Assembly: GCF_008274625.1 (NCBI RefSeq) | Contig: NZ_VTRU01000001.1 | Location: 1,860,001-1,924,000, forward strand | Source: Chryseobacterium panacisoli | GTDB lineage: Bacteria; Bacteroidota; Bacteroidia; Flavobacteriales; Weeksellaceae | Direction: 5' to 3' | Length of the DNA: 64,000 bases | Part shown: piece by piece, positions 45,234-50,837 of the stretch | Layout: each line of letters starts with the position of its first letter | Numbering within the stretch: position 1 is the stretch's first letter | Notes under the pieces: generated by a model | What the model was told of the DNA's origin: nothing | Databases searched by the model: none | The model's input: only the letters and a program-made list of their open reading frames with translations | Made by a program: the position numbers and the translations under genes

Positions 45234-45428
45234 TCAAGGACGATCAAAGCATTCAATACTTACCAGTACTCTTCCTTTACAACATTCTGGTAAGGCATGA
45301 TAATCAGCACATGATCTTGGTTCACCCGGCCCGTATGGTCCGGCAGGACAGTTCTCAAAACAATTGTTTACATTTCCTCCACCGATTGATTTTAGGTTTT
45401 GGCGGTTCAATTTCTTTAGATTTTTCAT
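45234..45428 (-). CDS. GG-leader Cys-rich peptide 5 (bacteriocin-like precursor)
   Basis: 64 residues from ATG 45428; an upstream ATG gives an extension that lies in the 5' leader and is rejected. Leader MKNLKKLNRQNLKSIGGG; core NCFENCPAGPYGPGEP, then SCADYHALPECC and VLVSIEC, six Cys matching peptides 1 and 2 (C-x3-C-P, C-x-x-Y, VLVS-x-E-C). It is promoter-proximal in the cluster, with a perfect -7 box upstream. Confidence 0.77.
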   Translation of the reverse strand: MKNLKKLNRQNLKSIGGGNVNNCFENCPAGPYGPGEPRSCADYHALPECCKGRVLVSIECFDRP

Positions 45429-45482
45429 GATTATTTCGTTATTAGTTAATGTTATAAATGTAACATTTTTAATCAATTACAA

Positions 45483-45490
45483 CAAATATA
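45483..45490 (-). promoter_or_regulatory. -7 promoter box for the small-peptide cluster
   Basis: The minus strand reads TATATTTG (perfect TAnnTTTG), 54 nt before the peptide 5 ATG. It is back-to-back with the thr promoter. Confidence 0.6.
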
Positions 45491-45528
45491 TCTCTAAAAA
45501 AGGAAATATATTTTATTATGTTAAAAAA

Positions 45529-45559
45529 CTTGGCTGTTTCAAAATAAGTTGTACATTTG
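45529..45559 (+). promoter_or_regulatory. Promoter of the thr leader/operon
   Basis: CTTG (45529-45532) as -33, a 19-bp spacer and TACATTTG (45552-45559, perfect TAnnTTTG). Transcription would start near 45565, about 5 nt before the leader-peptide ATG. Confidence 0.65.
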
Positions 45560-45569
45560 TTCTGTTACA

Positions 45570-45671
45570 ATGAATCTATTAAGAAACATATCTGATATTT
45601 CTGCCCTGAAATCACCTATTTCAGGCATGTCTTCTGTTTCTGTATTCACAACTACAACAACTACCCCATAA
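45570..45671 (+). CDS. thr operon leader peptide
   Basis: 33 codons, ATG 45570 to TAA 45669-45671. It starts MNLLRNIS and ends SVSVFTTTTTTP: six consecutive Thr codons (ACA ACT ACA ACA ACT ACC) and Pro just before the stop. It lies 88 bp ahead of thrA, right after a clear promoter, with overlapping hairpins next to its stop. The design matches the ribosome-stalling leader peptides of amino-acid attenuators such as E. coli thrL, but the sequence is unrelated. Charged tRNA-Thr shortage would stall the ribosome over the first hairpin arm. Confidence 0.75.
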   Translation: MNLLRNISDISALKSPISGMSSVSVFTTTTTTP

Positions 45672-45726
45672 CGGGGTAAATTTTCACATATTATTTCCGG
45701 TACCCGTACTCTTTTTCTAAAGAGTA
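45662..45726 (+). promoter_or_regulatory. Putative threonine attenuator hairpins
   Basis: Arm 1 TACCCC (45662-45667, within the Thr-Pro codons) pairs with arm 2 GGGGTA (45673-45678). Arm 2 (ACGGGGTA) can instead pair with arm 3 TACCCGT (45701-45707). Arm 3 overlaps TACTCTTT (45707-45714), which pairs with AAAGAGTA (45719-45726). Mutually exclusive pairings are thus possible. The last hairpin lacks a T run, so a Rho-independent terminator is not certain. Confidence 0.5.
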
Positions 45727-45758
45727 GTCACTTCGTTATATCCAACTTCAAAAAATAA

Positions 45759-48209
45759 ATGATGAAAGTTTTAAAATTCGGCGGAACATCAGTCGCTCAT
45801 TCTCAGAATATCCTCCTGGTGGAAAAAATCATAAAAGATGAATCTTTAAAAAGCAGAATAGTTGTTATTGTATCAGCACTTCATGGTGTTACCGACCAAC
45901 TGATCAGAGCAGCAGAATATGCTTCTGTAAAAGATGAAAACTATATTCAGATGATTCAGAATCTTGAAGAAAAACATATCAGTCTGATCAAAGATCTTGT
46001 TCCCATCACAGAGCAAAGTTCTTTGCTAAGTTTTGTAAAAAAGCATTTCAATGATATTGAAGATCTTTGCAACGGAATTGCTGTTCTTGGTGAACTGACC
46101 TACAGAATAAAAGACAGAATAGCTTCTTATGGAGAGTTTCTCTCTTCAAAAATTATAGCGGCAAGACTCCGGCATGAAGGGCTAGACTGTATATGGATGA
46201 ATTCAGCAGACCTCATCAGAACAGACAGTAATTTCACCAATGCAAAAGTAGATTTTCAATGCACAGAAAGCAATATTATCAATTTTCTGAATGAAAATAA
46301 GAACCGTATTATTGTAGCTCCGGGTTTTGTAGCCCGTGACGAAAAAAATAATGCAACAACATTAGGAAGAGGCGGCTCTGATTACACAGCTTCCATTATA
46401 GCCGCCTCTATTAATGCAGAAGAACTTCAGATCTGGACCGATGTAAGCGGCATGATGACAGCTGATCCACGTTTGGCTTCCAATGCGAAACCTATTTCAG
46501 AAATTTCTTATCATGAAGCAATGGAATTATCCCATTTCGGAGCAAAAGTGCTTTATCCACCTTCCATTCAGCCTGTTATGGTAAAAAATATAGACCTGAT
46601 GATCAAGAATACTTTTGATCCTGAAGCACAGGGAACTTTAATTTCTCATCAACTGAAATCTTCAGGAAATGAAAAGCAGATTGCGGTAGGAATTTCAAAT
46701 ATGAACAGTATTGCGTTACTCACACTGGAAGGAAGCGGTATGATAGGAATTCCTGGTATTTCAGCAAAATTATTCCAGTGCTTAAGTCAGGAAAAAATCA
46801 ACATAATCCTGATCACACAAGGATCTTCCGAACATTCTATAACAATTGCAATTGAAGAAAAAGAAGCTTTACGTGCTGAATATGCAATCAATTCTTCTTT
46901 TGCGGATGATATCAATCTGAAAAGAGTATACCCGGTAAAAATTGAAACAGAACTTTCCATTGTGGCCTTGGTTGGAGAAAACATGAAAAGCAGAAGTGAT
47001 GTGAATGCGAAAATGTTCGGATGTCTTGGAAATAACGGGATTAATGTAAGAGCCATTGCTCAGGGATCTTCAGAAAGAAATATCAGTATTGTTATTTCAG
47101 AAAAGGACAGTAAAAAAGCTGTGAATGTACTTCATGAAGAATTTTTTGAGTCTGAAATAAAACAGGTTCATCTTTACATCTGCGGAACAGGAAATGTAGG
47201 GTCAAAACTGATCCACCAGATCTATGACCAGAATGCATATCTAAGAGAAAACTTTTTAGTCAATCTTAGAATTGCAGGAATTTCCAATAGCCGTCATATG
47301 ATATTTTCAGATAAAGGAATATCACAGGAAGATTACCTTATCTGGGATGAGCAAGGCGAAAAAGCTTCCGCTCTGGGGTTTGCTGAAGAGATTATCCACC
47401 GAAACTTGAGAAACTCTGTTTTTGTAGACGTAACTGCAAGTTCTGATGTACCTGAAATTTATGAAAGTTTATTAAAAAGAAGCGTGAATATCGTGGCCTG
47501 TAATAAAATTGCAGCCTCTTCAGATTTTAAAAAATATAAAACTTTAAAAAATACAGCAAGAAACCACAACTGCAATTTTTATTTTGAAACGAATGTAGGA
47601 GCGGGGCTTCCGGTGATAGGAACCATCAACGACTTAATCAATAGTGGTGACCAAATTCAGTCTATTCAGGCAGTATTGAGCGGAACATTAAATTTTGTCT
47701 TTAATCATTATGACGGAAGCAGAACTTTTTCTGAAGTCGTAGCCCAGGCCCAGCAGGAAGGTTATACAGAACCGGATCCAAGACTTGATTTGTCGGGAAC
47801 AGATGTCGCAAGAAAAATTTTGATACTGGCAAGAGAATCCGGATATCCTCTTCAGTTTGAAGAAATTGAAAACAGAGGTTTTCTTCCTGGAGAATGCATG
47901 CACGGAAGCGTTGGTGATTTTTATGAAAAACTTACAGCCAATGAAGACTATTTTAAAAACTTATTGAATGATGCTGAAAATGAGGGCAAAATTTTAAAAT
48001 ATGTAGCAGAATTTGAAGATGGAAAAGCAAAAGTAGGTTTACAGCATATTGCTCCCGATAGTGATCTGTTTCATCTTTATGGCAAAGACAATATTGTCAT
48101 TTTTAAAACCCTAAGATATTCCGAGCAGCCTTTGGTCGTAAAAGGAGCCGGGGCCGGAGCTGATGTAACGGCAAGCGGAGTTTTTGCAGATATTATACGT
48201 TCTATTTAA
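45759..48209 (+). CDS. thrA: Bifunctional aspartokinase/homoserine dehydrogenase
   Basis: 816 residues, E. coli ThrA length. Aspartokinase (about 1-290): VLKFGGTSVAH, GRGGSDYTASIIAAS, WTDVSGMMTADPR. Two ACT-like regulatory segments follow (TLEGSGMIGIPGISAKLF and ALVGENMKSRSDVNAKMFG). Homoserine dehydrogenase (about 470-816): LYICGTGNVGSKLIHQ for NAD(P), GAGLPVIGTINDLINSGD, and SGTLNFVFN. It phosphorylates aspartate and reduces aspartate semialdehyde to homoserine; the ACT region suggests threonine feedback. First gene of thrABC-folB, behind a Thr-rich leader peptide. ATGATG start; either Met is possible. Confidence 0.97.
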   Translation: MMKVLKFGGTSVAHSQNILLVEKIIKDESLKSRIVVIVSALHGVTDQLIRAAEYASVKDENYIQMIQNLEEKHISLIKDLVPITEQSSLLSFVKKHFNDIEDLCNGIAVLGELTYRIKDRIASYGEFLSSKIIAARLRHEGLDCIWMNSADLIRTDSNFTNAKVDFQCTESNIINFLNENKNRIIVAPGFVARDEKNNATTLGRGGSDYTASIIAASINAEELQIWTDVSGMMTADPRLASNAKPISEISYHEAMELSHFGAKVLYPPSIQPVMVKNIDLMIKNTFDPEAQGTLISHQLKSSGNEKQIAVGISNMNSIALLTLEGSGMIGIPGISAKLFQCLSQEKINIILITQGSSEHSITIAIEEKEALRAEYAINSSFADDINLKRVYPVKIETELSIVALVGENMKSRSDVNAKMFGCLGNNGINVRAIAQGSSERNISIVISEKDSKKAVNVLHEEFFESEIKQVHLYICGTGNVGSKLIHQIYDQNAYLRENFLVNLRIAGISNSRHMIFSDKGISQEDYLIWDEQGEKASALGFAEEIIHRNLRNSVFVDVTASSDVPEIYESLLKRSVNIVACNKIAASSDFKKYKTLKNTARNHNCNFYFETNVGAGLPVIGTINDLINSGDQIQSIQAVLSGTLNFVFNHYDGSRTFSEVVAQAQQEGYTEPDPRLDLSGTDVARKILILARESGYPLQFEEIENRGFLPGECMHGSVGDFYEKLTANEDYFKNLLNDAENEGKILKYVAEFEDGKAKVGLQHIAPDSDLFHLYGKDNIVIFKTLRYSEQPLVVKGAGAGADVTASGVFADIIRSI

Positions 48210-48218
48210 AATACAACT

Positions 48219-49145
48219 ATGAAAAAAGTAAAATTAAAAGTCCCGGCTACTGTTGCCAATCTGGTCTGCGGATTTGATATTCTGGGAATGGCTGTCCATG
48301 ATCCCTATGATGAGATGGAATTCAGATTATTGGAAACTCCCGAAATCATTATAAAACATACCGATTCCTTCGGACTTCCTGAAGAACCCACCGGTAATGT
48401 TGCAGGTATTGTTCTTTTAAAAATTCAGGAATATTTTAATCTGAAGAATGGTTTTGAAGTGATTATCCGTAAACATATAAAGCCCGGAAGCGGGCTCGGC
48501 TCCAGTGCGGCAAGTGCCGCCGGAGCCGCCTTTGGAGCCAATATATTATTAGGAAACAAGTTATCAAAAGAAGAAATGGTTCATTTTGCCATGTTCGGAG
48601 AAGAACTGGCTTCGGGCGTACGACATGCAGATAATATTGCTCCATGTATCTATGGCGGGATTACCCTGGTAAAATCCACCAATCCAATTGATATCATTCC
48701 GCTGAACAGTCCTGATTTATTTGTTACAGCAGTACATCCGCAGGTAGAAGTCAAGACTTCAGATGCAAGGCAGATATTAAAGAAAAATATCACTTTAAAA
48801 AGTGCAGTAGAACAATGGGGAAATATAGCAGGCCTTGTAGCAGGAATTCAGAAAAATGATTTACCGTTGATTGGCAGAAGTCTTACCGATGTTATTATAG
48901 AACCTATCCGCAGTATTCTGATTCCAAAATTTGATAAAATAAAAGAGAAAAGTTTACAATTAGGTGCTTTGGGAGGAGGAATATCAGGATCAGGGCCTTC
49001 TATTTTTATGCTGTCTGAACAAAAGGAAACAGCAGAAAAAATGGCTCAGATGATGAAATCAGTCTATGATGAGATTGAAATAGAAAGTCTTGTGTACGTT
49101 TCAAAAATAAACCCAAAAGGCATTCAACTTGTTGAAGAAGCTTAA
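48219..49145 (+). CDS. thrB: Homoserine kinase
   Basis: 308 residues, GHMP kinase fold: VKLKVPATVANLVCGFDILG at the start, ATP motif KPGSGLGSSAASAAGAAFGAN near 90-110, and LGALGGGISGSGPSIFML near 250. It phosphorylates homoserine for threonine synthase. It starts 9 bp after thrA and ends 14 bp before thrC. Confidence 0.97.
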   Translation: MKKVKLKVPATVANLVCGFDILGMAVHDPYDEMEFRLLETPEIIIKHTDSFGLPEEPTGNVAGIVLLKIQEYFNLKNGFEVIIRKHIKPGSGLGSSAASAAGAAFGANILLGNKLSKEEMVHFAMFGEELASGVRHADNIAPCIYGGITLVKSTNPIDIIPLNSPDLFVTAVHPQVEVKTSDARQILKKNITLKSAVEQWGNIAGLVAGIQKNDLPLIGRSLTDVIIEPIRSILIPKFDKIKEKSLQLGALGGGISGSGPSIFMLSEQKETAEKMAQMMKSVYDEIEIESLVYVSKINPKGIQLVEEA

Positions 49146-49159
49146 CATAAAAAACAGAA

Positions 49160-50464
49160 ATGAAATATTATAACTTAAAAGATTCTCTGGAAAAAATTGA
49201 CTTCAGAGAAGCGACAATAAAAGGTCAGGGAAAAGAAAAAGGATTGTTTTTCCCTGAAAACATTCCACAGCTTGACAAAGAATTTGTTCAAAATCTTCAT
49301 CAGTATTCTAATGAAGAGATTGCTTATCAATGTATGAAAGACTTTGTCGGAGATGAAATTCCCTTGGAAATTCTAAAAGAAATTGTTGCTGAAACTGTCA
49401 GTTTTGAAATTCCCCTGATCAAAATCAATGAACAGATCTCTATACTCGAGCTGTTCCATGGTCCTACTCTGGCTTTTAAAGATATCGGTGCGAGATTCAT
49501 GAGCCGCTGTCTGTCTTATTTTCTGAAAGATCAACAAAAAAAAGTTACTGTTCTTGTGGCAACTTCCGGAGATACCGGAGGCGCTGTTGCCCATGGGTTT
49601 TATAAAATCCCACAAATTAATGTGGTTATTCTGTATCCTAAAAACAGAGTAAGCCCGGTTCAGGAGAAACAGTTGACTACATTGGGCGAAAATATTTCAG
49701 CATTGGAAATCAATGGCAGTTTCGATGATTGTCAGAATCTTGTCAAGCAGGCTTTTTCGGATGAAGAAATCAACAGCCAGTTATTTTTGACGTCTGCTAA
49801 TTCTATCAACGTTGCAAGATGGCTTCCCCAGCAGATTTATTATTTAATCGCATTAAAGCAATGGATCCAAAACCATAAGGAACATCCAGTAATCTGTGTA
49901 CCAAGCGGAAATTTCGGAAATATTTGTGCCGGGCTGCTGGCTCATTTCAGAGGGCTGCCTGCCAGTCATTTTATTGCGGCCTGTAATGCCAATCATGTAA
50001 TTCCTGATTATTTTAAAACTCAGAATTATCAGCCTCAAAAAGCCGTTGCTACTTTATCCAATGCTATGGATGTAGGAAATCCGAGCAATTTTGTGAGAAT
50101 CCTGGAACTTTTCGGACATGAGTTTGATGCTTTAAAAAATAAAATATCTGCATATTCCATTGATGATGACGAAACAATGAGCACCATCTCGGAAGTCTAT
50201 GAGAAATACGGATATATTCTGGAACCTCACAGTGCTGTCGCATTTGCTGCAATGGAACAATATCTGCAGAAAAATCCAGGACAAAAAGGATTTATCCTCG
50301 GAACTGCGCACCCTGTAAAATTCGCCGATGCTGTGGAAAAAGCAATCCATACTCAGATTGAAATTCCGGATTCATTGAATGAGCTTATGAAAAAGGAGAA
50401 AAAAACTGTAGAAATAAATTCAGATTTTGAAGAATTAAGACGATTTTTGCTTCATAAAATATGA
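49160..50464 (+). CDS. thrC: Threonine synthase
   Basis: 434 residues, PLP-dependent fold type II. The PLP lysine is in GPTLAFKDIGARFM; VATSGDTGGAVAHGF and the phosphate-binding CVPSGNFGNICAG are present; it starts MKYYNLKDSLEKIDFREA, like class I (E. coli-type) threonine synthases. It converts O-phosphohomoserine to threonine, completing the pathway encoded by the operon. folB follows after 4 bp. Confidence 0.97.
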   Translation: MKYYNLKDSLEKIDFREATIKGQGKEKGLFFPENIPQLDKEFVQNLHQYSNEEIAYQCMKDFVGDEIPLEILKEIVAETVSFEIPLIKINEQISILELFHGPTLAFKDIGARFMSRCLSYFLKDQQKKVTVLVATSGDTGGAVAHGFYKIPQINVVILYPKNRVSPVQEKQLTTLGENISALEINGSFDDCQNLVKQAFSDEEINSQLFLTSANSINVARWLPQQIYYLIALKQWIQNHKEHPVICVPSGNFGNICAGLLAHFRGLPASHFIAACNANHVIPDYFKTQNYQPQKAVATLSNAMDVGNPSNFVRILELFGHEFDALKNKISAYSIDDDETMSTISEVYEKYGYILEPHSAVAFAAMEQYLQKNPGQKGFILGTAHPVKFADAVEKAIHTQIEIPDSLNELMKKEKKTVEINSDFEELRRFLLHKI

Positions 50465-50468
50465 GGCA

Positions 50469-50837
50469 ATGAGCAAAATATATCTTGAAGATGTACGAAT
50501 ATATGCGTACCATGGCGTACTTCCTGAAGAAAACATTATCGGGACGTATTATATTCTGAATGTAGAACTTCATACTGATCTGTGGAAAGCTGCAGCATCC
50601 GATGATTTGCATGATACCATAAGCTATGCAGATATCAACGATATTCTTCACAAGGAAATGAAAATAAAATCCAAATTACTGGAACATGTAGCAGGAAGAA
50701 TAATCTCAACAATCCACAACAGCTTTCCACAGATTGATTATATTAAATTAAAAATTACCAAAACAGCCCCACCTATGCAGGGAGAAATGACAGGTGCCAG
50801 TATTGAGCTGGAAAAGAGCTTTAAACCGGAAAATTAA
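50469..50837 (+). CDS. folB: Dihydroneopterin aldolase
   Basis: 122 residues, normal length. IYLEDVRIYAYHGVLPEEN (with the active-site Glu), then DTISYADINDIL and LKITKTAPPMQGEM with the catalytic Lys. It forms 6-hydroxymethyl-dihydropterin from dihydroneopterin, the step before FolK (encoded at 4.1 kb). It lies 4 bp after thrC, so it is probably translated from the thr mRNA and would follow threonine control; a biochemical link is not obvious. Confidence 0.94.
   Translation: MSKIYLEDVRIYAYHGVLPEENIIGTYYILNVELHTDLWKAAASDDLHDTISYADINDILHKEMKIKSKLLEHVAGRIISTIHNSFPQIDYIKLKITKTAPPMQGEMTGASIELEKSFKPEN

Follow-up and report, generated by a model that had tools for sequence, protein, structure and literature searches.

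A candidate threonine attenuator ahead of thrABC in Chryseobacterium, with Rho favoured in place of an intrinsic terminator

Attenuation by leader peptides is one of the models on which the study of gene control was founded, but little has been described of its anatomy in the Bacteroidota. The hallmark of the ribosome-mediated form is a run of codons specifying the amino acid that the pathway makes, overlapping conserved RNA structure ahead of the biosynthetic genes. In the thrL leader of enterobacteria, runs of Thr and Ile codons are followed by downstream hairpins, and in the E. coli tnaC leader the position of the ribosome at the stop codon gates a Rho site, free tryptophan being sensed through the nascent peptide. 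A tested precedent is the Salmonella orf34-speF leader, in which ribosomes paused on the control codons allow a hairpin near the stop codon to form, ribosomes at the stop codon prevent it, and translation of the ORF counters Rho (PMC6386406). Leader-peptide attenuation of amino-acid operons has also been reported for Flavobacterium psychrophilum, in an account whose accessible parts do not give the anatomy of a thr leader (PMC9723704).

We have analysed the DNA upstream of thrA in a window of 64 kb from Chryseobacterium panacisoli, the window being the whole stretch under study. We conclude that this region is likely to encode a translation-coupled threonine attenuator of thrABC(-folB) that acts without an intrinsic terminator, with Rho as the favoured agent.

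A threonine-codon leader that accompanies thrA

The window carries the closely spaced gene order thrA-thrB-thrC-folB on the plus strand. ThrA (45759-48209, with ATG 45762 as the start common to relatives) is a bifunctional aspartokinase-homoserine dehydrogenase with the Pfam domains AA_kinase, ACT, NAD_binding_3 and Homoserine_dh. ThrB (48219-49145) is assigned as a homoserine kinase of the GHMP family from its GHMP_kinases_N and GHMP_kinases_C domains and its operon position, and ThrC (49160-50464; Thr_synth_N, PALP, THR4_C) is a threonine synthase. The dihydroneopterin aldolase gene folB (50469-50837; Pfam FolB) begins 4 nt 3' of thrC and, given this close spacing, is probably co-transcribed with it. 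A separate protein of ~518 residues (G000:C10:562791-564287) matches ThrA residues 314-814, the ACT and homoserine-dehydrogenase part, and has equivalents in relatives that include Chryseobacterium genomes without thrA. On the minus strand between 44248 and 45476, pointing away from thrA, lies a series of short ORFs that begin alike (MKNLKKLNRKELEQLNGA, MNNSKKLNRENLRSIIGG, MKTIKKLSREEKKSITGG and MKNLKKLNRQNLKSIGGG); they resemble double-glycine leader peptides, and none of the three tested matched Pfam.

A flavobacterial promoter can be read directly on the plus strand at 45529-45559, composed of CTTG (45529-45532, the -33 element), a 19-nt spacer and TACATTTG (45552-45559, the -7 element). 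The latter is kept in the genus alignment, 8-12 nt 5' of the leader ATG. In F. psychrophilum the TAnnTTTG box of promoters lies at -12 to -5 (PMC9723704), which by analogy would place the transcription start at about 45564, 6 nt 5' of the ATG at 45570. The thr message would then be almost leaderless.

This ATG opens a 33-codon ORF (45570-45671, plus strand) that ends 87 nt 5' of thrA and encodes the peptide MNLLRNISDISALKSPISGMSSVSVFTTTTTTP. The ORF finishes with a Phe codon, six consecutive Thr codons (45648-45665), a Pro codon and the stop. An earlier note on this DNA had described both the promoter and a 33-codon ORF that starts just 3' of the predicted transcription start and ends FTTTTTTP, and both descriptions hold. 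No other short ORF in the window has such a six-Thr run, and none arose in 60 mononucleotide shuffles. Among 113 fetched sequences from relatives in two flavobacterial families, defined by possession of a CCCC-stop-GGGG hairpin, the leader frame is open from the start codon to a Thr-Pro (or similar) end in every case; this conservation of the frame leads us to infer that the ORF is translated. In 58 of the 113 sequences the longest Thr run has six residues; over the whole set it varies from 1 to 16, and leaders with short Thr runs have Thr mixed with Ile. The attenuator probably senses threonine plus isoleucine.

The earlier note had proposed looking for a conserved Thr-rich short ORF upstream of thrA. 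Such an ORF, accompanied by the promoter and the RNA elements, precedes thrA in all Chryseobacterium examined that have this gene, and again in a second flavobacterial family. A DNA search of the genus matched 84 of 118 genomes, a few by short pieces alone. From the matched genomes and from named loci 86 thrA upstream regions (some of them duplicates) were parsed, and each of the 86 has a short ORF that is built in the same way and contains Thr. The leader thus has the control codons of the broad ribosome-mediated attenuator class, with six Thr codons in the window and the ORF upstream of the biosynthetic operon in all same-architecture relatives examined.

The distribution of the leader follows that of thrA. 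For the 42 Chryseobacterium genomes common to an order-level search with the RNA model R1 and a ThrA search, the RNA module was found in 30/30 with full-length ThrA and in 0/12 without, the sole ThrA match in these 12 being a partial one to homoserine dehydrogenase. One genome, G082, has lost thrA, thrB and most of thrC, and there a decayed leader is joined to the end of thrC with folB still next; this remnant is missing its run of Thr codons, the hairpin at the stop codon and one of the two arms of hp1 (described below). The co-occurrence with thrA and the decay in G082 tie the leader to thrABC. In essence each genome has a single fit to the RNA module, and this lies before thrA; a search for its reuse in other operons of the genome under study found the exact pattern once only.

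R1 also matched g35 (in another family of the order; perhaps Flavobacterium, at a guess), g54 and g116. Where inspected these matches lie upstream of thrA, with L213 and L222 as exceptions, of which the L222 match looks spurious. A phylum-wide search with a second model, R2, returned the same genera plus L245. The leader is conserved in two flavobacterial families, and a degenerate form stands before thrA in more distant Bacteroidota. Three individual loci may be recorded separately. At L213 a Thr leader is followed, a couple of hundred bases on, by a different gene (by eye of GxxExxY type) instead of thrA. The G038 genome has a second, partial copy of the thr promoter and leader start 3 kb upstream of its intact leader (L153); the copy breaks off within the ORF, and the adjoining sequence, judged by eye, may be acetolactate-synthase coding sequence. 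At L117 (G177) the promoter and leader ORF have been replaced while thrA keeps motif 2 and hp3 (see below), so that the sensing half is lost and the 3' half retained.

Conserved hairpins and a repeated ACATATC motif

Three hairpins are conserved in and after the leader ORF. The first, hp1 (CCTGAAAT/ATTTCAGG, 45605-45625), lies inside the ORF and was not listed in the earlier note. It shows 27 compensatory cells, in which both sides have changed, compared with 9.7 in shuffles (0/500 shuffles reach 27), and it is 80.9% paired, as against at most 61.9% for slid versions of the same stem. At its position the second family has a different sequence, CAACTC/GAGTTG.

The second hairpin, hp2, pairs TACCCC (45662-45667), drawn from the Thr-Pro codons, with GGGGTA (45673-45678) after the stop codon, and holds the leader stop codon TAA in its loop. 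Its CCCC/GGGG arms are invariant in the 40-sequence alignment A2, and because hp2 barely varies in the flavobacterial families covariation cannot test it there. Compensated forms with the stop in or beside the loop do occur in other families of the class, their arms paired by eye: ACGGG/CCCGT with Thr-Gly-stop (L259, L266), CCCGG/CCGGG with Thr-Arg-stop (L248) and CAACCC/GGGTTG, also with Thr-Arg-stop (L250, L285). Some genomes have the stop codon at or just 3' of the hp2 3' arm, with peptide endings such as TPFLG, TPFGV and TPIGV. That the transcript opens with a Thr-codon leader, whose last codons and stop codon lie inside hp2, is well supported.

The third hairpin, hp3, pairs TACTCTTT (45707-45714) with AAAGAGTA (45719-45726). 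Two-sided changes are seen in 6/8 of its base pairs in an unbiased MAFFT alignment and in 8/8 in a model-fitted alignment that is biased towards the structure. On this covariation the interpretation of hp1 and hp3 as selected RNA structures is well supported. With hp1 and hp3 covarying and hp2 compensated in distant families, conserved RNA structure lies over and after the control codons, as in the attenuator class. Both hp2 and hp3 had been proposed in the earlier note; each is present as described, hp2 being invariant nearby and compensated at a distance.

Two further elements share the sequence ACATATC. Motif 1 (ACATATCT, 45586-45593) begins 16 nt after the leader start codon, and ACATA is at this offset in 88/94 sequences from the family to which the window belongs. 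The ACATAT of the second family is found at offset 18, and at offset 17 in one genus, which places it in other reading frames; the exact ACATA is missing in 12/19 second-family sequences, many of which have AAATA. The codons AAC-ATA are used for motif 1 in 82/84 cases, as compared with 15/56 for AAC and 17/84 for ATA in thrA. The differing frames and the choice of codons favour conservation of motif 1 as RNA. Motif 2 (ATTTTCACATATTAT, 45680-45694), likewise not listed in the earlier note, is a near-invariant single-stranded segment just 3' of hp2. Between hp2 and hp3 the family of the window has a near-invariant ATTTTCACATAT(C/T)A, and much of the second family has ATTTT(C/T)ACATATAATCC; motif 2 is also recognisable in L256 and L285, from other families, and in L245, related at the level of the phylum only. 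Of the matches to the motif elsewhere in the genome, those inspected did not lie in leader contexts. We considered ATTTTCACATAT as a boxA and rejected this assignment, the rrn leaders of the genome carrying GATCATTGACAT, which shares little with it beyond ACAT. In an rrn operon of this genome (L172) GATCATTGACAT precedes both the 16S and the 23S rRNA and is a candidate boxA of the genus.

Proposed mode of action and alternatives to it

Conservation, covariation and co-occurrence with thrA together give strong support to a Thr-codon leader controlling thrABC, and from these sequence comparisons we regard threonine-responsive leader-peptide control as very probable. With plentiful charged Thr-tRNA the ribosome would reach the stop codon, sit on and melt hp2, and then release. 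The C-rich, G-poor leader would now be free of ribosomes, and RNA polymerase would be halted ahead of thrA or in its early part. Under threonine shortage the ribosome would stall on the Thr codons and cover the C-rich tract, hp2 would fold in front of it, and polymerase would proceed into thrABC. Ribosome and polymerase would probably be kept synchronous by hp1, or by hp2 with ATTTTCACATAT ending ~11 nt behind, acting as a pause; the distance of ~11 nt from hp2 to ACATAT would suit a hairpin-stabilised pause.

Rho would be the likeliest stopping agent given that no intrinsic terminator is present, and a Rho protein is encoded in the Chryseobacterium genome. Between 45645 and 45720 the leader has 21 C and 7 G in a window that is balanced as a whole; this excess is weak evidence for Rho, since the Thr-codon run is C-rich by coding alone and rut sites of Bacteroidota are not defined. 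By analogy with the characterized systems, we name Rho rather than another terminator only tentatively, as an assignment that falls a little short of an even call.

The best-surviving alternative, which we nevertheless consider unlikely, is classic attenuation by an intrinsic terminator, with hp3 (or hp2 followed by AATTTT) as a weak terminator and pairing of GGGGTA with downstream sequence (2:3 pairing) as the antiterminator. The order of the parts is right for such a device. However, the T run that should follow hp3 is absent: none occurs in the window, where a terminator scan finds no terminator-like site 3' of hp3, and the inspected sequences from two flavobacterial families likewise have no U-tract after this hairpin. 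The same scan does detect terminators at the sister-genus locus L136. A hairpin with a U-tract, which defines the classic intrinsic terminator, is thus seen neither in the window leader nor in the inspected relatives. The earlier note had itself named the missing T run as its weak point, and the recurrence of this feature in same-architecture relatives of two families argues that the leader is not a plain intrinsic-terminator attenuator. A distant relative, L248, does have the full three-segment logic, its hp2 3' arm being able to pair with the 5' arm of a hairpin that is followed by TTTTT. The scan did not flag this hairpin, presumably because its stem is interrupted, and L248 shows that an intrinsic terminator can be attached to the same leader type.

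Several pairings were considered for the antiterminator of this alternative. GGGGTA can pair with TACCCGT (45701-45707) in the window, but across species the pairing named in the earlier note, ACGGGGTA/TACCCGT, is formed in 72.4% of cells compared with 72.4% in shuffles and shows no covariation. Since 45707 is the only base that it has in common with hp3, formation of one need not prevent the other. If GGGGTA paired instead with TACTCTT, the 5' arm of hp3, in a GU-rich duplex, hp3 would be excluded; the energy of this duplex is better than shuffled on average in the window's family (mean z -1.22), weak support that does not extend to the second family (0.07). Two other candidates were discarded, namely a duplex of GGGGTA with the region 5' of hp3 (mean z -0.81 in the window's family and -0.20 in the second) and a helix between GGGGT and the end of motif 2, which appears in single-sequence folds and is not consistent. 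Unbiased column-pair covariation on alignment A4 returned mostly hp3 among its top pairs and no alternative helix. No candidate for a conserved antiterminator pairing is kept in both families, in a setting where the invariance of the hp2 3' arm leaves covariation little power. Of the three stems in which the earlier note proposed to test for covariation, hp3 has it and hp2 is compensated in distant families; of its competing hairpins, hp2 and hp3 (and the unlisted hp1) are conserved and the named competing pairing is at the shuffled level. Its central idea, that stalling at Thr codons switches hairpins and so controls thrABC, survives strongly as regards threonine control by the leader and not as regards the named three-way switch, the second pairing of which lacks covariation.

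Action after transcription, in which the position of the ribosome would set RNA folding and so alter thrA translation or mRNA decay, seems to us improbable. In its favour, the distance from hp3 to thrA varies little among Chryseobacterium, being 32-40 nt in most, and the Salmonella speF leader combines steps of this kind with Rho (PMC6386406). Yet no conserved pairing covers the thrA start, and several second-family genomes have ~70-80 nt more sequence between hp3 and thrA. The extra sequence there at L204, L212, L217 and L219 makes occlusion of that start unlikely and favours transcriptional control. Judged from these spacings, action on transcription and not on thrA translation is a likely property of the leader. 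Finally, the well-conserved peptide start MNxLRNISDIS within the genus and the presence of ACATATC in both motifs might suggest that the peptide, or a protein bound to ACATATC, is the regulator and the Thr run incidental, but other genera have an entirely different N-terminus and yet keep Thr (and Ile) codons ahead of the stop, and motif 1 falls in different frames, making this very improbable.

Returning to the translation-coupled attenuator without an intrinsic terminator, a broader extrapolation would be that it represents a widespread Bacteroidota class in which the stop-codon hairpin folds only on control-codon stalling, and the hairpin together with the twice-present ACATATC pauses or modifies RNA polymerase, which thereby escapes Rho. 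We regard this generalization as possible but doubtful.

Relationship to described attenuators

Control of this kind has already been reported for flavobacteria in general terms (PMC9723704), and terminator-type thr attenuators occur in sister genera of Chryseobacterium, contrary to the suggestion in the earlier note that the well-studied cases lie outside the Bacteroidota. The F. psychrophilum attenuators and the Bacteroid-trp RNA (RF01692, PMC2864571) resemble the present leader in belonging to the same phylum and to amino-acid operons. The leader is a variant by virtue of its stop-codon hairpin, hp1, repeated motif and missing terminator, and this variant was not found described in the searchable literature. 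No description of the anatomy of a Bacteroidota thr attenuator was found in the open-access literature, and PMC2965389 does not mention Bacteroidetes. An Rfam scan of the whole window gave no Thr_leader match at the gathering score, and a scan of 45400-45900 that allowed E values up to 10 gave none either; the sole match in the window was a tRNA elsewhere, and the leader matched no family, RF01692 included.

Classic leaders rich in Thr and Ile, in which a T run follows a strong hairpin, are found within the window's own family in g9, g21 and g23 and, outside it, in f17. We observed such thr attenuators, many with an intrinsic terminator, at eight loci of sister genera (L132, L136, L137 and L139-L143) and five of f17 (L258, L260, L263, L280 and L286). 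Their occurrence alongside the present type indicates that two thr attenuator designs coexist in the phylum. Judged by identities only, the ThrA proteins that accompany terminator-type leaders are ~42-48% identical to the query, and those that accompany the present type are mostly closer to it. The sister-genus leader at L136 (peptide MMNFTTTTTISTTTTISSCRKVCL) and the f17 leader at L258 are like that of Chryseobacterium in preceding the same gene with a Thr/Ile-rich peptide, but differ in having a strong hairpin followed by a T run, and in the classic thr attenuators of sister genera we saw no hp2 with its stop codon, no ATTTTCACATAT and no hp3 of the Chryseobacterium type. These classic leaders provide a natural comparison. 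With a leader that is conserved, absent from Rfam and free of a U-tract, the coupling of ribosome stalling to Rho instead of an intrinsic terminator becomes testable in the Bacteroidota.

Enterobacterial thrL (Rfam Thr_leader) likewise stands before thrA and combines a short ORF bearing runs of Thr (and Ile) codons with downstream hairpins, whereas the Chryseobacterium leader is without a U-tract terminator, embeds its stop codon in hp2 and carries the conserved ATTTTCACATAT. The proposed model has in common with orf34-speF a series of adjacent control codons, a hairpin close to the stop codon of the ORF and Rho-dependent termination; orf34-speF differs in serving an arginine and putrescine pathway, in its further steps by RNase G and translation, and in its unrelated sequence. 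The E. coli tnaC peptide also ends in Pro-stop, but tnaC senses free tryptophan, whereas the end-product codon run of the Chryseobacterium leader points to tRNA charging as the signal.
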